Below are positions 1-11,062 of a DNA stretch of 64,000 nt, in pieces (positions within the stretch are counted from its first letter, which is position 1; the number at the start of each line of letters is the position of its first letter). Made by a program: the position numbers and the translations under genes. Under the pieces are notes generated by a model that was not told the origin of the DNA, did no database searches, and worked only from the letters and a program-made list of their open reading frames with translations. The stretch covers positions 62,001 through 126,000 of the forward strand of contig JAJPIG010000013.1 in assembly GCA_021324855.1 (NCBI GenBank). The letters are read 5' to 3'. The DNA is from Pseudomonadota bacterium. Its GTDB lineage: Bacteria; Desulfobacterota; Binatia; Binatales; Binataceae.

Positions 1-81
1 GCGCTGAGTCATCCGATCGGCAAACCGGATTTTCATCATCCCGACGGATTCGCGTTGCTGTTAGAGCCGCCCCGGTCCTGA
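1..81 (+). CDS. C-terminal end of an unidentified protein
   Basis: An open frame enters from the left edge in frame 1 and stops at TGA 79-81, giving the last 26 residues of a protein that ends in ...LEPPRS. The stretch is too short to assign. It lies 83 bases upstream of the DUF1460 gene on the same strand, so it may be the previous gene of that operon, but this is not shown. Confidence 0.55.
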   Translation, partial: ALSHPIGKPDFHHPDGFALLLEPPRS

Positions 82-164: not shown

Positions 165-929
165 ATGAGGCACGCACAGCCACGAAGTCTCAGGCGGCGC
201 CGCGTGGAGCAGCTTTTATCCAAAGCCAAAAACGATCACTCCGCCGGCATGAGAATGGAGGTTCTGTCCCGCGCCTTCATCGGACATCCGTACACGCCAA
301 ATCCGTTGATCGGATCGGCAGAGAACGCGGAAGTATTCACCGCCACCCTCGACGGCTTCGATTGCGTGACATACATCGAGACGGTCCTGGCGCTCGCGCG
401 CGCTTCAACCGCCGACGACTTCGTCGACGGTCTGCGGAAGATTCGGTATGACCGCGGGCGCATCGGTTGGAAATGGCGCAATCACTATATGACGGGATGG
501 ATTCGCAACAACCTGCGCGAACGCATAATCGCGCCGGTTCGCGCGCGCGGCGTTCCGATCGTCAGCCGCGACCGCATCCTGAACGTCGTGCCCGGACTGG
601 ACGCGCAGCGCGTCCGCATCAAATGCGTGGCGAAACCGGCGGTATCGCGGCTCGCCGCCTCGCTGCAGACCGGCGATCTGATATTTTTCGTTTCGACGCG
701 GATGAACCTCGATGTATTTCACGCCGGAATCGTCGTGCGCGAAAATGACAGGCTGCTAATCCGCCACGCGTCGCGCAGCAAAGGCGGGGTCGTGGAACAG
801 GAGTTAAGCGAGTTCCTGAAGGAAAACCGGATGGCGGGCGCAATCGCGATGCGGCCGCTGATGACGCCGGCAAGGCGACGACCTTCGATAGCGGAGCGAG
901 CAGGCGCGAAGCGGCGGGGCGGGATGTGA
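165..929 (+). CDS. DUF1460 family N-acetylmuramoyl-L-alanine amidase-like protein
   Basis: The 254-residue protein matches the DUF1460 (NlpC/P60-related) cysteine amidase pattern. A DCVTY motif carries the probable nucleophile Cys67. A downstream VFHAGIVV motif carries His186, and a RHAS motif His201. Family members cut muropeptide amide bonds, and in several bacteria they act on recycled murein fragments. No hydrophobic signal peptide is visible; the N-terminus is very basic. That suggests a cytoplasmic enzyme, or a wrongly chosen start (Met28 and Met31 are alternatives). The stop codon overlaps the GTG of the next gene by 4 bases, so the two are translationally coupled. The family call is good; the substrate is inferred. 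Confidence 0.8.
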   Translation: MRHAQPRSLRRRRVEQLLSKAKNDHSAGMRMEVLSRAFIGHPYTPNPLIGSAENAEVFTATLDGFDCVTYIETVLALARASTADDFVDGLRKIRYDRGRIGWKWRNHYMTGWIRNNLRERIIAPVRARGVPIVSRDRILNVVPGLDAQRVRIKCVAKPAVSRLAASLQTGDLIFFVSTRMNLDVFHAGIVVRENDRLLIRHASRSKGGVVEQELSEFLKENRMAGAIAMRPLMTPARRRPSIAERAGAKRRGGM

Positions 930-2200
930 AAATCGTCCATCCGACTGACTACTCATCGGCGGGGATACGGGCGATTCTCGATGCTGCCGATGCCGAGATC
1001 GTTTTCATCGGCGATCCTCGCGCGAGCTTTGAGCCCGGACCGCGCATGTTCGAGCGGATGCGTCAGGTGATGCGTGAGACCGGCGCCGGCTGGGTCTATG
1101 CCGATGCGGCGGGCCATCCGCGTATCGACTATCAGCGCGGAAGCATCCGCGACGCCTTCGATTTCGGCCCGGTGATCGGAGTGTCGGTTCCGGCCGCGCG
1201 TAAAGTGGGAATCGACGACGGCTGGAAATGGGGCGGACTGTACGACCTGCGGCTCAGAATCGCGGAGCGGCACGCGATCGTGCGGATTCCCGAGCCGTTG
1301 TACAGCGCGTCGGCCGGCGACGCGCGGCCGACAGGCGAGAAGCAGTTCGATTACGTCGATCCGCGCAATCGCGATTACCAGCTCGAAATGGAGCGCATTG
1401 CAACCGCGCACCTGAAACGCATCGGCGCCTGGCTGGAGCCGCATTTCAAGCCGGTCCCGGCGACAATCGAAAGCTTTCCGGTCAAGGCCAGCATCGTGAT
1501 TCCGGTTCGCAATCGCGAGCGGACGATTCTCGATGCGGTGCGAAGCGCGATCGGTCAGCGCGTTGATTTCGATTTCAATGTGATAGTTGTTGACAATCAT
1601 TCGACGGACGGGACCACCGAGATCCTGCGCGCGATCCGAGATTCGCGCGTCAGGCATATCGTTCCCGAACGCACGGACCTGGGGATCGGCGGATGCTGGA
1701 ATGAGGCGCTCTATTCGCGGGACTGCGGGCGCTATGCGATCCAGCTCGATTCCGATGACCTGTACCTCAATGACGGCGTGCTGGGCCGCATCGTTGCGGA
1801 ACTCGAAGCGGGGCCGTATGCGATGGTGGTCGGCGCGTACACGATGGTCGATTTTTCGCTGCATGAGATTCCGCCCGGCCTGGTCGACCATCGCGAATGG
1901 ACGCGCGAGAACGGCCGAAACAACGCGCTGCGTGTCAACGGGTTCGGCGCGCCGCGCGCTTTCGATACTGCGATTGTGCGTGAAATCGGCTTTCCGAACG
2001 TCAGCTACGGCGAAGATTATGCGGTCGCGTTGCGTCTAAGCCGCGATTACGAGATCGGCCGGATTTACGAGCCGCTCTATCTTTGCCGCCGATGGGAGGG
2101 CAACAGCGACAGCGCTATCCCGCTCGAAGCCGCCAACCGCTACGACTTCTATAAAGACTGGCTGCGGACCGTCGAGCTTCAGGCCCGAATGCGGCGATGA
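926..2200 (+). CDS. GT2 glycosyltransferase with an extra N-terminal half-domain
   Basis: The 424-residue protein starts at GTG 926, overlapping the previous stop. Residues about 185-410 form a standard GT-A fold GT2 domain, with a VIPVRNRE start, a VVDNHSTDGT nucleotide-binding strand and a DSDD metal-binding motif. Residues 1 to about 150 look like the second half of another GT-A domain. A stretch ending RIPEPLYSAS mirrors RIYEPLYLCR near the C-terminus, but no DxD motif is seen in the N-terminal copy. No membrane segment or signal peptide is visible, so it should act in the cytoplasm. It sits between a DUF1460 amidase-like gene and a DUF4922 gene, overlapping both by 4 bases. Donor and acceptor are unknown. 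Confidence 0.8.
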   Translation: MKIVHPTDYSSAGIRAILDAADAEIVFIGDPRASFEPGPRMFERMRQVMRETGAGWVYADAAGHPRIDYQRGSIRDAFDFGPVIGVSVPAARKVGIDDGWKWGGLYDLRLRIAERHAIVRIPEPLYSASAGDARPTGEKQFDYVDPRNRDYQLEMERIATAHLKRIGAWLEPHFKPVPATIESFPVKASIVIPVRNRERTILDAVRSAIGQRVDFDFNVIVVDNHSTDGTTEILRAIRDSRVRHIVPERTDLGIGGCWNEALYSRDCGRYAIQLDSDDLYLNDGVLGRIVAELEAGPYAMVVGAYTMVDFSLHEIPPGLVDHREWTRENGRNNALRVNGFGAPRAFDTAIVREIGFPNVSYGEDYAVALRLSRDYEIGRIYEPLYLCRRWEGNSDSAIPLEAANRYDFYKDWLRTVELQARMRR

Positions 2201-3087
2201 TCGACCGGGTGGAAGAACTCTTCAGGCGTCAGGCGAGGGCCTGGCCGCAGCTCGCGAAAGGCCTCGCCGGTCTCGCGCAGGCACGGACGCGAACGGTCCG
2301 CGTCGACTGGTTCGAAGTCTTCATCCGTCACATACCCCACCGGGTCGGCAGCACCACCGCGGCGGTCGATCGCGAGACGATTGCGAAGCGTCCCTGTTTC
2401 TTATGTGCGGGAAACCTGCCGCCGGAGGAGGAGGGCCTGGAATTCGGCGATTTCACGATCTACTGCAATCCGTTTCCAATCGTGGATCGTCATCTGACGA
2501 TCGCTCATCGCGAGCATCGCATGCAGCGCATCGCGAACCAGATCGGCACCATGCTCGATCTCGCCGCAACCCTGCCCGCTTGTTTCATCATCTATAACGG
2601 CCCGCAATGCGGCGCATCTGCGCCCGACCATCTGCATTTTCAGGCCGGCTTGCGACAGTTGCTGCCGATCGTGAAGGAGACCTCCGGCCTGACCGGGATC
2701 GCGGCGCCGAATTACGCGCGAAACGTTTTGATCCTGCGCGGGCGGGATCGATCGGCTTTGATTGACCGAACCGAGAGGGCGATCGGTCTGCTCGCCGAAA
2801 CCACGGGGGAGCAGCCCGAGCCGATGGTCAACATCGCGGCGTACGAGGAGGCCGGGGAGTGGACGATTTTCCTGTTCCCGCGCGGAAAGCATCGGCCGGA
2901 GGTGTTTCACACCGGCGAGCTGACGGTGAGTCCGGCGGCGATAGATTTGTGCGGAATCTTCGTCGTGCCGCTCGCGCGCGATTTCGAAGTCATCACGGGC
3001 GACGCGATCGCAGCAATTTTTCGCGAGGTCACGCTGGATAACGATCGATTTCGGGAAGTCGTTGCGAAGCTGGAGCGCGAACCTTGA
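2197..3087 (+). CDS. DUF4922 protein, GalT/HIT-like nucleotidyltransferase or phosphorylase
   Basis: The 296-residue protein resembles DUF4922 proteins. It carries a CFLC pair (Cys67/Cys70) that may bind zinc, a His-rich stretch (His99, His104, His107) and a HLHFQ sequence at 145-149. HLHFQ matches the HxHxQ active-site motif of galactose-1-phosphate uridylyltransferases and Ap4A phosphorylases. A nucleotidyl-transfer or phosphorolysis role on a sugar phosphate is therefore likely, but this is inferred. It is soluble with no signal peptide. ATGA overlaps link it to the upstream glycosyltransferase, and a TTGA overlap links it to the downstream SpoIID gene, so the four genes form one transcript. 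DUF4922, SpoIID and GT2 neighbours recall gene sets in Bacteroidetes (from memory). Confidence 0.78.
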   Translation: MIDRVEELFRRQARAWPQLAKGLAGLAQARTRTVRVDWFEVFIRHIPHRVGSTTAAVDRETIAKRPCFLCAGNLPPEEEGLEFGDFTIYCNPFPIVDRHLTIAHREHRMQRIANQIGTMLDLAATLPACFIIYNGPQCGASAPDHLHFQAGLRQLLPIVKETSGLTGIAAPNYARNVLILRGRDRSALIDRTERAIGLLAETTGEQPEPMVNIAAYEEAGEWTIFLFPRGKHRPEVFHTGELTVSPAAIDLCGIFVVPLARDFEVITGDAIAAIFREVTLDNDRFREVVAKLEREP

Positions 3088-4316
3088 ACGTATCGGTAGG
3101 ACTCGTCACCGCACGGCCGGCGGTCGAGGTCGAATTGATCGGCGCGTATACCGACAGCTCCGGCAGGCGCTACGCGCCCGGCCGATATCGGTTCGATTCC
3201 GAAGCGACGCTCACTCCGGCCGACCCCGCATCGTGCGCGTTCGCCCTCGACGACGTCACGATCGGAATCGGATTTCATTGGCAGCGCGAGGAGCGCCAGG
3301 TATTCCGCGGCGTCTTGCGGCTCATCAAGCGGGAGGGCGGGTTGACGGCGATCAACGACGTTGCGCTCGAAGAGTACGTGACCAGCGTCATCTCGTCCGA
3401 GATGAGCGCCTCGTGTCCGATGGAACTGCTCAAGGCCCACGCCGTGATCTCGCGAAGCTGGCTATGGTTTCCGAAAGTCAATCCGCCGCGCGCCGGACGG
3501 GCGCCGGCGGAGCGCCGCGATTCGCATGAAATCGTCCGCTGGTACGGCCGCGAGATGCATCGCGATTTCGACGTATGCGCCGACGACCATTGCCAGCGCT
3601 ACCACGGCATCACGAAGGCCTTCTCTCCGGCCGCGGCCGAAGCGGTGCGCGTCACGGCCGGCGAGTTTCTCCGCTATGGCGGCGCGGTCTGCGATGCGCG
3701 GTTTTCCAAGTCGTGCGGCGGGATGACCGAAAATTACGCGACCGCCTGGGAAGATGAGGATGTTCCCTATCTCAGGTCGGTCTACGATGGCGCGACGCAA
3801 CCATCGCCGTGCAGTCCCGAGATGTGGATACGCTCCAGCCCGCCGGCTTACTGCAATACGAATGATTCGCAACTGCTCGCCCGCGTGCTGCCATCATTCG
3901 ATCAGGAGACGCGCGACTTCTATCGCTGGCATGCTGCTTACACGCCGGAAGAACTTGCCGGGCTGGTCGAGTCGCGGCTGGGCGTGAGCCTCGGTCCGAT
4001 CCGCGGCCTCCAGGCGCTCGCGCGCGGGCCGTCGGGCCGGATCTATCGGCTGAAGATCACCGGCGAACGCGACTACATCATCATCGGCAAGGAGCTGGAA
4101 ATCCGCCGCGCGTTGTCGCGCACCCATCTTTACAGCTCAGCGTTCGTCATCGAGAAGGAACCGGGCCGCTTCATTCTGAGAGGCGCCGGATGGGGGCACG
4201 GTGTCGGCCTATGCCAGATCGGCGCGGCGGCGATGGCGGAGCAGGGGAAGGATTACGTCGAGATTCTGCGGCATTACTATCGCGGAACGACGATCGGCGT
4301 TCATTTAGCCCCCTGA
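3084..4316 (+). CDS. SpoIID/LytB domain protein, murein lytic transglycosylase-like
   Basis: The 410-residue protein has the SpoIID hallmarks. An LEEYVTSVISSEM segment (about residues 92-104) contains the acidic catalytic region, followed by LLKAHAVISRSW, and GWGHGVGLCQ lies near the C-terminus. SpoIID enzymes cleave glycan strands lacking stem peptides. TTG 3084 overlaps the previous stop by 4 bases. No signal peptide or membrane anchor is visible, unlike the sporulation enzyme, which again suggests an intracellular substrate. Its association with an amidase-like, a GalT-like and a glycosyltransferase gene suggests turnover of murein fragments. It is the last gene of the operon; convergent genes follow after 254 bases. 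Confidence 0.82.
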   Translation: MNVSVGLVTARPAVEVELIGAYTDSSGRRYAPGRYRFDSEATLTPADPASCAFALDDVTIGIGFHWQREERQVFRGVLRLIKREGGLTAINDVALEEYVTSVISSEMSASCPMELLKAHAVISRSWLWFPKVNPPRAGRAPAERRDSHEIVRWYGREMHRDFDVCADDHCQRYHGITKAFSPAAAEAVRVTAGEFLRYGGAVCDARFSKSCGGMTENYATAWEDEDVPYLRSVYDGATQPSPCSPEMWIRSSPPAYCNTNDSQLLARVLPSFDQETRDFYRWHAAYTPEELAGLVESRLGVSLGPIRGLQALARGPSGRIYRLKITGERDYIIIGKELEIRRALSRTHLYSSAFVIEKEPGRFILRGAGWGHGVGLCQIGAAAMAEQGKDYVEILRHYYRGTTIGVHLAP

Positions 4317-4570: not shown

Positions 4571-4924
4571 TCAAACCGCTTCGAGCCGCGACCTGATGGC
4601 ACGCATCCGCGCGGAGAGGTCGGACTCGCTTATCAGTCCACGGCTGAGCATCGTATGAGCCAGCGCGAGTAGCTGACGTTCTGGCTCGGGAACATCGGCA
4701 TAGGCGGACTCTGCGAGCTCATCCTCGGCGGCGCGCCGTTCGAGTACCGGCAGCGCACCGCTTACGGCCAGGCACTCGCAGGTTGCTATCAGGCTGGTCT
4801 TCCATGGCGGATTCGGATTGGTTACCCCGTAGCGCGGTGCAAGAGTGTTCCAAGTCTGGTCCTCGGAGCGCAGCGCCTCGAGCAGCGCGTAGCGGGTGTT
4901 GGCCAGCTCTTTATTCTCGCTCAT
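4571..4924 (-). CDS. Nitrile hydratase/thiocyanate hydrolase accessory protein (P15K-like)
   Basis: This 117-residue soluble protein follows the three subunit genes by 13 bases. An AGGGGAG ribosome-binding site in the gap lies at good spacing from ATG 4924. The N-terminal NTRYALLEALRS stretch and the C-terminal LSRGLISESDLSARM helix resemble the small NHase-beta-like accessory proteins (P15K of thiocyanate hydrolase, P14K and similar activators). Those help insert cobalt and mature the cysteine-sulfenic/sulfinic centre. Function is inferred mainly from length and position; sequence similarity is recognisable but not strong. A contribution to cobalt loading of the adjacent gamma/alpha subunit is the most likely role. 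Confidence 0.65.
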   Translation of the reverse strand: MSENKELANTRYALLEALRSEDQTWNTLAPRYGVTNPNPPWKTSLIATCECLAVSGALPVLERRAAEDELAESAYADVPEPERQLLALAHTMLSRGLISESDLSARMRAIRSRLEAV

Positions 4925-4937
4925 GGCCGAGCTCCCC

Positions 4938-5660
4938 TCAGTCTCGGGAACTTCCGACGGGACGCCGCGCCCGATGCATGGGATGAACGTCTGCGGTCCT
5001 GCCGGGGCGCGGCAGGGCTACGCCAATCATACAGTCGCGCGTGACAATCTCGGCCAGCTGCTCCTCGGTCCAATTTTCGGTGCCTGCAGGCCGCACCGGG
5101 AGAACCATGAAACGGCACTTCTGGTTGGAGTCCTCGACGCGTATCTCGACTTCGGGCGGAAGGACCAGGCCAAACTCCGCAAGAACCTGCCGGGGCCAGC
5201 GCACCAGTCGGCGGCGATAGTTTGTAGTGCGATACCATTCGGGCGACATCCCGAGGAGCGGGCGCGGGTAGCACGAGCAAAGCGTGCAAACAATCACATG
5301 ATGCAGCGTCGGGGTATCTTCCAGAACGCGCAGGTTCATGTAGTCGCTTGGGGTGCCGAAGCCGGTGGGCTCGGCCCAATCGATGCCGATCTCCTTGCAG
5401 GCTTTCACGGCATCTTTCAGAACACGCTCTTTGAAAGCGGGGTCGACCCAGGCTTTCGCTACCAACCGGGAACCGGCGGCAGGCCCAATCGACTCGGCCC
5501 ACTCGGTGAACCTTCGATGATCTTCGGCGGTAAAGAGGCCGTGTTCGATGGCAAGTTCGCGGACCGCGATTTCGAGAACTTCGAAATCGGTTATTTCGTC
5601 CACCGTTGGCGCCGCGGGGTGTTCGGCGCCACCATTTCCCGGCGTATGTGCATGACTCAT
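4938..5660 (-). CDS. scnC: Cobalt nitrile hydratase alpha / thiocyanate hydrolase gamma subunit
   Basis: The 240-residue protein carries the metal-binding motif CTLCSC at 125-130, followed by YPRPLLG. Cys125, Cys128, Ser129 and Cys130 would ligate the non-corrin metal, with two cysteines normally oxidised to sulfinate and sulfenate. Thr in the second position is the cobalt signature; iron enzymes usually have Ser. The following EWYR and the C-terminal TRDCMIGVA region fit the family. Length is close to thiocyanate hydrolase gamma (about 243 residues, from memory). The beta chain is split into two genes here, as in thiocyanate hydrolase and toyocamycin nitrile hydratase. The substrate (thiocyanate to COS and ammonia, or a nitrile to an amide) cannot be decided from sequence alone. 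Confidence 0.85.
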   Translation of the reverse strand: MSHAHTPGNGGAEHPAAPTVDEITDFEVLEIAVRELAIEHGLFTAEDHRRFTEWAESIGPAAGSRLVAKAWVDPAFKERVLKDAVKACKEIGIDWAEPTGFGTPSDYMNLRVLEDTPTLHHVIVCTLCSCYPRPLLGMSPEWYRTTNYRRRLVRWPRQVLAEFGLVLPPEVEIRVEDSNQKCRFMVLPVRPAGTENWTEEQLAEIVTRDCMIGVALPRPGRTADVHPMHRARRPVGSSRD

Positions 5661-5703
5661 TTTTTGGATTCTCCTCCGGTTCGATCCGTCGATTCAATTC
5701 AGG

Positions 5704-6030
5704 TCAGTCGTCGGCGGGTTCAAGCCAGCGCTCAGGCGATTCAGTCTGTAGGGTGTCGTTGTCGAATGGGTATCCGGGCCAGAGATCCTTTTGCCGAAAC
5801 CGCACAATGTAATATTGCTCGATCCGGCCGTCTCGATTGAAAGCTTCGTCCTCGGGGATGAGGTCCTGATATGTGCATGCGGCGATAGTCCCGACGGCGC
5901 CGCGAACGTACATCTGCGTGCGGCTGTAAAACAGATTCGGCAGGTCCTTAACCCGCACTCGGTCCCCCACCTTGAAACGGGCTTTGCCGGCGGCAGCCGG
6001 GGGCGTTCCGCGTGACTCACTTTCTCGCAT
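5704..6030 (-). CDS. scnA: Thiocyanate hydrolase alpha-type subunit (C-terminal half of NHase beta)
   Basis: The 108-residue protein corresponds to the SH3-like C-terminal half of nitrile hydratase beta: KFKVGDRVRVKD-type start (here RFKVGDRVRVK), then a RGAVGTI turn, YYIVRF and a terminal ESPERWLEP. In thiocyanate hydrolase this half is a separate alpha subunit, and this gene fits that arrangement. Its start overlaps the end of the beta-type gene by 14 bases, and the gamma-type gene follows after 43 bases, so co-translation in fixed ratio is likely. It has no signal peptide. The three-subunit architecture is seen directly; the thiocyanate-specific name is an inference from it. Confidence 0.82.
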   Translation of the reverse strand: MRESESRGTPPAAAGKARFKVGDRVRVKDLPNLFYSRTQMYVRGAVGTIAACTYQDLIPEDEAFNRDGRIEQYYIVRFRQKDLWPGYPFDNDTLQTESPERWLEPADD

Positions 6031-6442
6031 AGCGCGCTTTCACCTCCGCGATCTTCTCGATCAGTTCGGATAAAGCGATATGTTTCTTGTCCACCAGCAT
6101 TCGCGCCGCCGCCAGTATCCAGCGTCCGTAGTACGGGATGCCCAAGTACATTGCATAGCCCAGGTCGTTATCGGCTCGACGGCGTCTCTCCTCGGAATTC
6201 CATATCCCGCGCCATCCAAGGACTTCGCAGGTAACGTAGGTGTTGAGTTCCCACTGCTCCTCCTCCTTCTCTTCATAGATGGCGGGGACGTCGAACTGGC
6301 CGCCGACATCGTGGGGCGGATGCAGATAGGCTTTCACCACGGGGCTGGCCAGCTCGTAGTTCCAGTTTTGCGGCATATGCAGCGCTGGCTGCAAAAAGCT
6401 GATTATCTCCTGCTGCTGGACTAGCTCTTCTCGCCCCGCCAT
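6017..6442 (-). CDS. scnB: Thiocyanate hydrolase beta-type subunit (N-terminal half of NHase beta)
   Basis: The 141-residue protein corresponds to the N-terminal, helical half of nitrile hydratase beta. It contains PPHDVGGQ, the motif that opens NHase beta chains, then EVLGWRGIWNSEERRRR and YYGRWILAAARML. It is the first gene of the minus-strand operon in the order beta-alpha-gamma-accessory, which as far as I recall is the order in Thiobacillus thioparus. ATG 6442 is preceded by a strong GAGGAGG ribosome-binding site. The promoter must lie in the 6443-7045 divergent region. There is no signal peptide, so the complex is cytoplasmic. Confidence 0.83.
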   Translation of the reverse strand: MAGREELVQQQEIISFLQPALHMPQNWNYELASPVVKAYLHPPHDVGGQFDVPAIYEEKEEEQWELNTYVTCEVLGWRGIWNSEERRRRADNDLGYAMYLGIPYYGRWILAAARMLVDKKHIALSELIEKIAEVKARYARK

Positions 6443-8384: not shown

Positions 8385-8680
8385 GGGGCATTGGTATAGC
8401 ACGCCGGCTTGTGCAGAGCTTCCTTAGCGTTCGAACGCGCTACGGATAGCCAGCTCGCTCGCGCGGTTGGCGATGAACGCATCGCCGCGATCGATGAAGT
8501 CGGCGAGCGGTAGCTCGACCAACGATGCGGAGAGTGTCGAGTCGCGCGAGCCTCCATCGTGCAATGACCGTCTCGAAGCCGGCTGCTTTCCCCGGCTCGG
8601 GTCGGCGATATCGCATTTATATCAAGATCTTCCAAGCGGTATGATTGCGGCACAGAGTTGGGACCAGAGGACATGAATTT
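8385..8680. other. Intergenic stretch upstream of the E1 gene, no convincing gene
   Basis: Nothing here qualifies as a gene. A short minus-strand frame ending at TAA 8424-8426 has plausible codon use (...IANRASELAIRSAFER) but no recognisable family and no clear start; it could be a gene remnant. The last bases hold the AGAGG ribosome-binding site (8666-8670) for the next gene, whose promoter should also lie here. Confidence 0.4.
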
Positions 8681-11062
8681 ATGACCAATGCTGCCGACTT
8701 GAGAACCGACTCCCAGCCCGCGTGGGATGCGCGCGACGTTGCGATGCTGGAGCGGATTCAGCGCCGCGTGCTGTGGCTCGCCACCTACATGGTGCATCAC
8801 GCGAACCACCTGCGCGACGGCGCGGGCGTGAAGGTCGGGGGCCATCAGGCGAGCTCGAGCTCGGTGGTGACGCTGCTCACCGCGCTCTATTTTCACTATC
8901 TCAAGCCGGGCGATCTGGTTTCGATCAAGCCGCACGCGTCGCCGGTCTTCCATGCGATCCAGTTTCTGCGCGGCTACCTGCCGGGTTCGAAGCTCAGGGA
9001 ATTCCGCCAGTTCGGCGGATTGCAGGCTTATCCATCGCGCACCAAAGATGTTGACGGCGTCGATTTCTCGACCGGCTCGGTGGGCCTGGGCGCGGTGGCG
9101 CCGATTTTCGGCGCGCTGGTGCGCGATTATGTGGCGGATCATTTCGGCGCGGACCCGAACCGTCCCGGCTCCGGATGGCAGATTGCGCTGGTCGGCGACG
9201 CGGAACTCGATGAGGGCAACGTCTGGGAGGCGCTGGGGGAGGAGTTCACGCAGCGGCTCGCGCGCGTGATGTGGATAATCGATCTTAATCGGCAAAGCCT
9301 CGATCGCGTGATTCCGGACGGCCGCGCGCAGCGTCTGCGTGAAATGTTCAAGTGCAACGGCTGGGAGGTGATCGACCTCAAGTACGGCCATCGGCTCGAG
9401 AGCGTTTTCAGCCGGCCCAAAGGCGCGAAGCTCCGCGCGCTCATCGATGCGATGAGCAACGAGGAGTACCAGAGCCTGCTGCTGAAGGATGGCGAGACGA
9501 TTCGCGAGCGGCTGATCGCGCGCGAACCCGCGATGGCCGAGTTGCTCGGCAACTACTCCGGCGACGAGTGCAAAAGCCTTATCGCCGACCTCGGCGGACA
9601 CGATCTGGCGAGTGTGCTCGCCGCCTATGCGCGCGCGTTCGCGGTGACCGATCGCCCGGTGGTGATCTTCGCCTACACGATCAAAGGCTGGGGCCTGCCG
9701 ATCGCCGGCAATCCCGCGAATCATGCGCGCTTGCTGAAGCCGTCTGAAATTGCGCATCTGCAGGACGAGCTTGGCATCGCGCGCGGCGACGAATTTGCCG
9801 GCTTCCCGCCGGACAGCGACGAGATGCAATACATCCGTAGCACGATGGAGATGCTCGGATGGTCGCACGAGCGCAGCCCCGGCGGTCCGGCGGCGAAGCT
9901 GCCGCAGATTCGACCCGCGCTGGGACTGCATTACCAGGGCTCGCTTTCGACGCAATCCGCGATGGGCAGCGTGCTGGTGAACCTGGCGCGTATCCCGGAG
10001 GTCGCGCCGTATCTGGTGACGGCATCGCCGGACGTCGCGATGTCGACGAATCTCGGCGGATGGATTCATCGCGCGGGTATCTACTCGCGCCGTCCCGAGA
10101 GCCGCAACTACTTCAAGGAGCTGGGCATCGCGCTTCTGATCGACTGGAAGGAGAGCCCGCGCGGACAGCACATCGAGCTCGGCATCTCGGAGACCAATCT
10201 GTTCATGCAACTGGGCCTGCTGGGCCTTGCAGACCAGCTCTATGGGCAGCCGCTGCTGCCGATCGGCACGGTTTACGATCCGTTCGTATGCCGCGCGCTC
10301 GACGCCTTCATCTACGGGCTTTACTCGGGCTCGCGCTTCATCGTGATCGGCACGCCGTCGGGCGTGACGCTGAGCCACGAAGGCGGCGCCCATCAATCGA
10401 CCATCACGCCGGGGATCGGCGCGCAGTTGCCGGGCCTTTTAAGCTACGAGCCGGCGTTCGCGCAGGAGGTCGAGTGGATCATGCTCGATGCGCTCCGCGC
10501 GCTGCACGATCGTGAGCATGGCGCGAGCGCCTATCTGCGGCTTTCGACGCGATCGATCGACCAGGCGCCGTTCAATCGGTTTCTCGCCGGGCGCGATGAG
10601 AGCGAAGTGCGCCGGCGGGTGTTAGCGGGCGGCTATCGGCTGATCGATCGCAGCGCGGAACGCGATTACAGCGTTGGCGACAACGTCGTGCATCTGTTCG
10701 CGGTCGGCGCGATGGTGCAGGAGGCGCTGACAGCGGCGGGCGAGCTGGAGCGCGACGGGATCTTCGCCAACGTTTTCGTGGTCACCAGCGCCGATCGTCT
10801 GTTTCATCAGAGCCTCGCGGCCGGAGCAGAATCGGACGGGCTCGGCTGGCTCATGTCGGATGACGAGCGCGGCGCGCCGATCGTCACCGTCCACGACGCT
10901 CATCCGCTTACGCTCGCGGCGCTCTCCCGCGCATTGTCGAGACGGGTCGCGAACCTCGGCGTCACCAGCTTCGGCCAGACCGGCGCCCTCGAGGAACTTT
11001 ATCGGGCGCATGGCATCTCCGCCGCGCACATCGCGGCGGCGGCGCGCGGCCTGCTCGATTGA
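8681..11062 (+). CDS. Homodimeric-type pyruvate dehydrogenase E1 / transketolase-fold enzyme
   Basis: ATG 8681 follows AGAGG by 10 bases and is preferred to TTG 8645. The 793-residue thiamine-diphosphate enzyme resembles AceE-type E1: GGHQASSSS near the N-terminus, SVGLGAVAPIF, and GDAELDEGN, matching the ThDP/Mg-binding GDG...N motif. It is about 95 residues shorter than E. coli AceE (887), mostly at the N-terminus, where AceE contacts E2. E1 decarboxylates pyruvate and acetylates the lipoyl domain of E2. No E2 or E3 gene is nearby, so either it serves a distant complex or it is a stand-alone 2-oxoacid enzyme. The fold assignment is firm; the exact substrate is not. Confidence 0.78.
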   Translation: MTNAADLRTDSQPAWDARDVAMLERIQRRVLWLATYMVHHANHLRDGAGVKVGGHQASSSSVVTLLTALYFHYLKPGDLVSIKPHASPVFHAIQFLRGYLPGSKLREFRQFGGLQAYPSRTKDVDGVDFSTGSVGLGAVAPIFGALVRDYVADHFGADPNRPGSGWQIALVGDAELDEGNVWEALGEEFTQRLARVMWIIDLNRQSLDRVIPDGRAQRLREMFKCNGWEVIDLKYGHRLESVFSRPKGAKLRALIDAMSNEEYQSLLLKDGETIRERLIAREPAMAELLGNYSGDECKSLIADLGGHDLASVLAAYARAFAVTDRPVVIFAYTIKGWGLPIAGNPANHARLLKPSEIAHLQDELGIARGDEFAGFPPDSDEMQYIRSTMEMLGWSHERSPGGPAAKLPQIRPALGLHYQGSLSTQSAMGSVLVNLARIPEVAPYLVTASPDVAMSTNLGGWIHRAGIYSRRPESRNYFKELGIALLIDWKESPRGQHIELGISETNLFMQLGLLGLADQLYGQPLLPIGTVYDPFVCRALDAFIYGLYSGSRFIVIGTPSGVTLSHEGGAHQSTITPGIGAQLPGLLSYEPAFAQEVEWIMLDALRALHDREHGASAYLRLSTRSIDQAPFNRFLAGRDESEVRRRVLAGGYRLIDRSAERDYSVGDNVVHLFAVGAMVQEALTAAGELERDGIFANVFVVTSADRLFHQSLAAGAESDGLGWLMSDDERGAPIVTVHDAHPLTLAALSRALSRRVANLGVTSFGQTGALEELYRAHGISAAHIAAAARGLLD

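Follow-up and report, generated by a model that had tools for sequence, protein, structure and literature searches.

A four-gene cassette for a DUF1460 amidase, a family 2 glycosyltransferase (GT2), a DUF4922 protein and a SpoIID protein was identified in a 64-kb stretch of bacterial DNA (the window), which belongs to a 3.75 Mb assembly (38 contigs, 96% complete) from the Binataceae. On the basis of sequence comparisons, we hold with moderate confidence that the cassette serves the cytoplasmic salvage of N-acetylglucosaminyl-anhydro-N-acetylmuramic acid (GlcNAc-anhydroMurNAc) imported by AmpG, where it would replace NagZ and often AnmK. Comparison between genomes shows the module, its predicted location, its partner genes and its near exclusion of NagZ. 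A first-pass annotation of the window had suggested that murein fragments are handled by a coordinated pathway in the cytoplasm, which is supported by the signal-less proteins, the gene fusions, the neighbouring salvage genes and the near exclusion of NagZ; its proposal that the pathway rebuilds such fragments found support in no test, salvage being the better fit to the genome context. The cassette and the gene end preceding it are laid out as follows:

165..929, plus strand: DUF1460 amidase, 254 amino acids (aa) (PF07313, 140.9 bits, 4.9e-41)
926..2200, plus strand, GTG start: GT2 (Glycos_transf_2, 72 bits, 7.1e-20)
2197..3087, plus strand, ATG start: DUF4922 protein (PF16269, 167.7 bits, 2.1e-49)
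3084..4316, plus strand, TTG start: SpoIID protein (PF08486, 82.9 bits; TIGR02669, 176.5 bits, 9.8e-52)
1..81, plus strand: 3' end of the preceding gene, for a 186-aa protein, whose start lies outside the window (the gene is L047:8522-9082; no Pfam match)

All four cassette proteins exceed the Pfam cut-off, and their earlier naming as amidase-like, glycosyltransferase and SpoIID proteins is upheld by Pfam and NCBIfam matches, as are the 4-nucleotide (nt) overlaps noted at each junction (GTGA, ATGA and TTGA) by the open reading frame (ORF) coordinates. The GT2-DUF4922 and DUF4922-SpoIID overlaps recur at L035 and L039 (L numbers denote loci and G numbers genomes), from two further sampled genomes of this family, where a short gap replaces the amidase-GT2 overlap; the conserved overlaps represent translational coupling of the cassette genes, not chance. 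Among the nearest named records of the best 80 relatives is a 'Candidatus Binataceae' metagenome-assembled genome (L049), whose DUF4922 protein is 74% identical. The 186-aa protein upstream of the amidase is a possible first gene of the operon, and at L051:7412-8713 one open frame joins a stretch similar to its N-terminal part to the amidase. A phage origin was considered and rejected, since neither DUF4922 nor SpoIID nor the upstream 186-aa protein matched any PHROG.

Conservation of the module was assessed in 97 loci, comprising the best 80 of at least 578 DUF4922 relatives found by a profile scan of GTDB genomes and 17 strong matches from a set of 198 genomes of the window's phylum. The relatives came from an alignment-based scan, a scan with the single protein having given no match; loci cut by contig ends were kept as misses, and a few counts include a duplicate, since L039 and L054 very probably represent one contig. 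DUF4922 was accompanied by GT2 in 87 loci, by SpoIID in 66 and by the DUF1460 amidase in 20. The triad of GT2, DUF4922 and SpoIID was present in 64 loci, 58 of them with the order GT2 > DUF4922 > SpoIID on one strand (other layouts: SpoIID > GT2 > DUF4922, two; DUF4922 > SpoIID > GT2, two; both strands, two), and was found in Bacteroidota, Ignavibacteriota, Acidobacteriota and 'Deltaproteobacteria'. Furthermore, GT2 and DUF4922 form a single ORF in L031, L033, L034 and L123, as do DUF4922 and SpoIID in L103 (Carboxylicivirga linearis); fusions in both combinations point to one process in one compartment.

The 198 genomes of the phylum gave a similar association: GT2 occurred in 24, a cytoplasmic-type SpoIID in 23 of these (in G152 as a contig-end fragment only) and DUF4922 in 17, the last figure being what remained of 27 genomes at E≤0.001 once 10 weak matches were dropped. 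Co-occurrence of GT2 with the cytoplasmic SpoIID held even where the genes are dispersed in the genome (G104 and G133). The weak, partial DUF4922 matches (L018-L030), from the 10 genomes that lack a strong one and as second matches in three genomes that have one, lie in frames of mostly 170-184 aa, are possibly small HIT proteins and were left uncounted. These data bear on a different explanation, in which DUF4922 is a dinucleoside polyphosphate phosphorylase, GT2 serves envelope glycan, and proximity to SpoIID and AmpG reflects co-regulation with wall growth. The closest fold of DUF4922, that of a diadenosine tetraphosphate (Ap4A) phosphorylase, would suit it, but the two kinds of protein fusion, and the fact that a cytoplasmic SpoIID accompanies GT2 in 23 of 24 genomes whether the genes are dispersed or not, make it very unlikely.

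The first reading had seen no signal peptide in any of the four proteins, and an N-terminal hydrophobicity scan with controls, used in place of SignalP, agrees. Around the loci, signal-like N-termini were scored in 2 of 63 SpoIID, 2 of 97 DUF4922, 2 of 80 GT2 and 2 of 18 amidase proteins; the controls gave 31/33 for NamZ, 13/26 for xanthan-lyase-like proteins, 3/8 for the NagZ cluster, 2/15 for NagX-like proteins, 1/22 for MurQ and 0/29 for the kinase. Upstream of the window's amidase the frame is open for 82 codons with no earlier ATG, GTG or TTG start, so that no signal peptide is hidden there. Only 1 of 78 cassette-type SpoIIDs had a signal-like N-terminus, compared with 13 of 20 other SpoIIDs of the phylum (14 of 23 before three cassette fragments cut by contig ends, one of which had scored positive, were removed). 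In a quick tree of phylum-sample sequences (76 versus 20 rows; no Firmicute or chlamydial ones, and long branches among the non-cassette SpoIIDs), the cassette SpoIIDs were separated from the others by a branch of length 2.85 (SH-aLRT 99).

Judged from its sequence, the window's SpoIID is a member of the SpoIID/LytB family (cut-offs of 23 bits for PF08486 and 83.3 bits for TIGR02669; 2.2e-25 against PDB 4rwr) but not of the exported kind, as the hydrophobic N-terminus of exported or membrane-anchored members is absent. It has the domain in common with the SpoIIDs of sporulating Firmicutes and chlamydiae, whereas the cassette type differs from the exported kind in being signal-less, linked to AmpG and placed in a clade separate from the remaining SpoIIDs in the phylum sample. 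SpoIID and the amidase could still reach the sacculus by an export route that needs no classical signal and do their usual work there, given that export is common in these families: most non-cassette SpoIIDs (the 13 of 20) have a hydrophobic N-terminus, and an amidase relative outside the window's group (L068) carries a signal. Set against this are the single hydrophobic N-terminus among the 78 cassette-type SpoIIDs and the DUF4922-SpoIID fusion in L103, and we regard such export as extremely improbable.

A survey of gene neighbourhoods, which the first-pass annotation had proposed, found DUF4922 co-occurring with genes for SpoIID, DUF1460, AmpG and a MurK-like kinase. Neighbours were named by clustering adjacent ORFs and then identifying one representative per cluster. 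AmpG lay near 49 of the 97 loci, a MurK/NagK-like kinase near 28, NamZ near 25, MurQ near 23, a NagX-like protein near 15, and MurU and AmgK near 6 each; a golvesin-domain protein held the 'xanthan lyase' position at 28. Bacteroides loci such as L112 read XANL > GT2 > DUF4922 > SpoIID > AmpG > NamZ > NagX-like > kinase > MurQ, and four genomes of family f11 in the window's phylum (L134-L137) have a SpoIID-AmpG-MurU-AmgK-GT2 operon. Two further genomes (G024 and G062, loci L138 and L139) have a reduced module: SpoIID, MurU and AmgK form an operon, GT2 lies at another place in the genome, and DUF4922 gave no match.

In AmpR systems, anhydromuropeptides serve as regulatory ligands, and the module might accordingly alter them to end or create a signal instead of recovering sugars. 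The operon linkage to AmgK and MurU, or to a MurK-like kinase and MurQ, indicates recovery of N-acetylmuramic acid (MurNAc) and renders this signalling role most unlikely.

The window's own genome (G000) has the gap that a salvage cassette fits. It encodes AmpG (470.7 bits; cut-off 350) and an AmgK-like gene adjoining a MurU-like gene (both under the strict NCBIfam cut-offs), while searches of this 96% complete assembly for glycoside hydrolase family 3 (GH3)/NagZ and for AnmK returned no match. From its gene content, G000 could thus activate MurNAc, yet it would lack the NagZ and AnmK that free MurNAc from GlcNAc-anhydroMurNAc; GH20 and other glucosaminidase families were not searched for. With the recycling of Escherichia coli and Pseudomonas (AmpG, AmpD, NagZ, AnmK, and MurQ or MupP-AmgK-MurU) it shares AmpG and the AmgK-MurU-like pair, and it differs in having neither GH3/NagZ nor AnmK and in carrying a DUF1460 amidase within the cassette (AmpD was not searched for).

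Across the 198 genomes, GH3 and GT2 were nearly mutually exclusive. AmpG was counted in 113 genomes (122 less 9 with E above 1e-7) and AnmK in 20 (23 less 3 below the cut-off). Among the AmpG carriers, GH3 was found in 4 of the 23 that have GT2, compared with 84 of the 90 that do not (odds ratio 0.015; Fisher test P=7e-13). Since genomes are not independent, the count was repeated by family: 1 of 8 families with GT2 had GH3 as against 37 of 38 without (P=1e-6), or 3 of 8 when ties were counted as GH3 (P=2e-4). Three of the four exceptions, typed post hoc, are BglX-type and not NagZ (G149 by NCBIfam; G104 and G133 by loop sequence). The best GH3 proteins of 80 of the 84 comparison genomes (all except G028, G065, G128 and G180) were checked against what we take to be the NagZ loop pattern: 74 had the loop, four had near variants (L240, L246, L248 and L266) and two were BglX-type (L192 and L196). 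Of the first 40, 30 fitted the initial pattern and 8 more once P was allowed; the other 40 were then checked with the wider pattern.

The amidase, of the AmiA-like NlpC/P60 superfamily, is related by phmmer to PDB 4h4j/4q5k, 2p1g and 2im9, and has the PF07313 domain together with the Cys-His-His triad (C67, H186 and H201). Of 28 aligned stretches, 20 carry the whole triad; the remaining eight have gaps at these positions because split domains were entered as separate alignment rows. The amidase thus shares sequence family and triad with the known DUF1460 amidases, and differs from them in lacking a signal peptide and in its operon with GT2, DUF4922 and SpoIID. Xu et al. (2014) reportedly found DUF1460 amidases to be specific for anhydroMurNAc-peptides. 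The triad itself is named for these amidases in an excerpt of PMC10318531.

In the GT2 model (AlphaFold2 (AF2), predicted local distance difference test (pLDDT) 92.6), the C-terminal GT-A domain (residues ~184-424, with DSDD at 275-278 and GEDY at 362-365) looks active: D275, D277, D278, E363 and D364 are invariant in 53 of 53 aligned sequences, and the domain superposes on 6p61 with a VIA Z of 24.5 (2.0 Å, 186 residues). The N-terminal 150 residues may form a second, degenerate GT-A-like domain. The top Foldseek match is the two-domain chondroitin polymerase 2z86; its root-mean-square deviation of 22 Å across both domains means that the second domain is only suggested.

For DUF4922 (AF2 model, pLDDT 95.1), the earlier description as GalT/HIT-like gives way to Apa2-like, and a GalT-like identity was discarded: GalT-type chains reach a Z of at most 9.6, whereas yeast Ap4A phosphorylase Apa2 (4i5v) aligns over 251 residues with a VIA Z of 24.5 (2.5 Å). 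The next-best other structure was 4qvu (DUF4931; Z 9.8). The motifs HLHFQ (145-149) and CFLC (67-70) contain H145, H147 and Q149 (HxHxQ) and C67 and C70 (CxxC), all invariant in 69 of 69 aligned sequences. HxHxQ marks transferases and phosphorylases, not hydrolases. With this motif and the whole-chain fold of the Apa2 and GDP-L-galactose phosphorylase (GGP) type, the model identifies DUF4922 as a predicted Apa2-like nucleotidyl transferase/phosphorylase. HxHxQ is common to Apa2, GGP and DUF4922, the whole fold being matched to Apa2; the invariant CxxC and the fusion or coupling to GT2 and SpoIID set DUF4922 apart from both. The link to GGP comes from the parts of plant papers that list DUF4922, and only such papers mention it in the open-licence literature searched, where no role in bacteria was found.

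SpoIID has a catalytic-type Glu (E106) and a zinc-type motif (H159, C165, H169 and C170), invariant in 42 of 42 aligned sequences, which match E101 and H134/C140/H145/C146 of the Clostridioides difficile protein (paired by alignment and residue spacing, H159 by spacing only). In the in vitro results excerpted from PMC6221140, C. difficile SpoIID requires E101, C140 and H145, and H134 and C146 only partly. Chlamydial SpoIID acting on naked glycan is described in a section of PMC6635528 as giving mainly non-anhydro products, indicating that in this family the muramyl C1 is open to attack by water.

Combining these features, we infer each individual reaction of the pathway as follows. GlcNAc-anhydroMurNAc, with or without peptide, would be brought in by AmpG, and the DUF1460 amidase would remove the peptide, an AmpD-like step. 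Once the disaccharide is naked, cytoplasmic SpoIID would open its 1,6-anhydro ring by hydrolysis to give GlcNAc-MurNAc. The inverting GT2, running in reverse with uridine diphosphate (UDP), would yield MurNAc and UDP-GlcNAc. Phosphorolysis of this sugar nucleotide to GlcNAc-1-phosphate, with regeneration of UDP, may be the part of the Apa2-like DUF4922. MurNAc would pass to AmgK and MurU, giving UDP-MurNAc, or to MurK and MurQ. Ring opening by SpoIID and a reverse GT2 coupled to DUF4922 are put forward tentatively, as possible rather than probable forms of these steps.

GT2 may alternatively run forward. DUF4922 would then make a sugar nucleotide from salvaged sugar phosphates, GT2 would rebuild or tag murein or other glycan fragments, and SpoIID would trim them. 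GT2 has the invariant acidic residues that a forward inverting transferase carries, polymerases and transferases are its nearest structural matches, and Apa2-like enzymes are able to work in both directions. Forward synthesis would however leave unexplained the near exclusion of NagZ among AmpG carriers and the genomes without DUF4922, and the neighbours are catabolic or salvage enzymes; we consider it unlikely.

A parallel to the proposed salvage exists in Tannerella forsythia, whose operon Tanf_08345-08385 (xanthan lyase, gtf, gtf, lytB, ampG, ybbC, murT, murK and murQ) is co-transcribed, and whose AmpG imports both GlcNAc-MurNAc and GlcNAc-anhydroMurNAc, according to passages of PMC5388701 and PMC7670621. 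The gene order is that of Bacteroides loci such as L112, and from the order reported in those passages gtf/gtf/lytB would correspond to GT2/DUF4922/SpoIID. The window differs in that its cassette includes a cytoplasmic amidase and that AmgK/MurU-like genes are found at another site in the genome. In the relevant sections of PMC7670621, growth on GlcNAc-anhydroMurNAc(-peptides) is only slightly impaired and AmpG-dependent, growth on free anhydroMurNAc is restricted, and AnmK is not predicted; this pattern would be accounted for by an enzyme that acts on the disaccharide and leaves the free anhydro sugar alone. The AmpG of T. forsythia is also said there to deliver mainly disaccharides, which implies that a cytoplasmic SpoIID would need to accept a small substrate. 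The first-pass annotation had called the pathway undescribed, which holds in part: a co-transcribed operon of the same order is in print, and the excerpt of PMC5388701 gives gtf/gtf/lytB no role. What is already known is the T. forsythia operon; the open-licence literature searched contained no account of how widely the module occurs, of a clade of cytoplasmic SpoIIDs or of NagZ being excluded, nor of a function for gtf/gtf/lytB or a recycling role for a cytoplasmic SpoIID.

Several observations weigh against the proposed salvage. None of the cassette members has a known enzyme activity, and an inverting GT2 run backwards is uphill and needs a pull. One genome (G185, 89% complete) combines GT2 with a NagZ-type GH3 beside AmpG (L170 and L182); it has two SpoIIDs, both of another type than the cytoplasmic one, making it the only GT2 genome of the sample in which no cytoplasmic SpoIID was found. 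Given this and the BglX typing of the other three exceptions, no genome of the sample with both GT2 and a cytoplasmic SpoIID has a recognisable NagZ. Six of the 25 AmpG-positive, GH3-negative genomes also lack GT2 (G051, G061, G087, G113, G118 and G164), G121 has the cassette and no AmpG match, and a GH3 gene lies near 9 of the 97 loci. Seven of the 24 GT2 genomes have no DUF4922 match, and the idea of DUF4922 as an essential core was dropped for this reason; PF16269 also matches in the Synechococcus elongatus and Lactococcus lactis controls, and three Planctomycetota loci, among others, have GT2-DUF4922 with no SpoIID nearby. Neither DUF4922 nor GT2 showed significant exclusion of AnmK, and G149 and Bacteroides ihuae carry AnmK as well, so that AnmK is not always replaced; it was rejected as the main replaced enzyme, leaving NagZ as the main claim, and the exclusion of NagZ was assessed within the window's phylum. 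The T. forsythia authors, in the part of PMC7670621 that discusses the weak growth on anhydroMurNAc, suggest poor import or slow metabolism of the sugar.

Beyond the cassette, nitrile hydratase genes on the minus strand (4571-6442) converge on it: alpha, whose ORF contains CTLCSCY, the N-terminal and C-terminal parts of beta, and a small beta-N-like ORF slightly under the Pfam cut-off. An 805-aa transketolase/pyruvate dehydrogenase E1-like protein is encoded on the plus strand at 8645-11062.

The cassette, which occurs in Bacteroides and its relatives as well as in many environmental bacteria, predicts a second route, beside NagZ and AnmK, for recycling cell-wall fragments imported by AmpG. 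Its chemistry may be an energy-conserving split salvage, a possibility we advance with low confidence: after hydrolysis of the anhydro bond by SpoIID, GlcNAc-MurNAc and inorganic phosphate would give GlcNAc-1-phosphate and MurNAc, with UDP as catalyst. If true, such a split would save adenosine triphosphate relative to NagZ with AnmK/NagK, and would also answer how T. forsythia lives on GlcNAc-anhydroMurNAc without AnmK.

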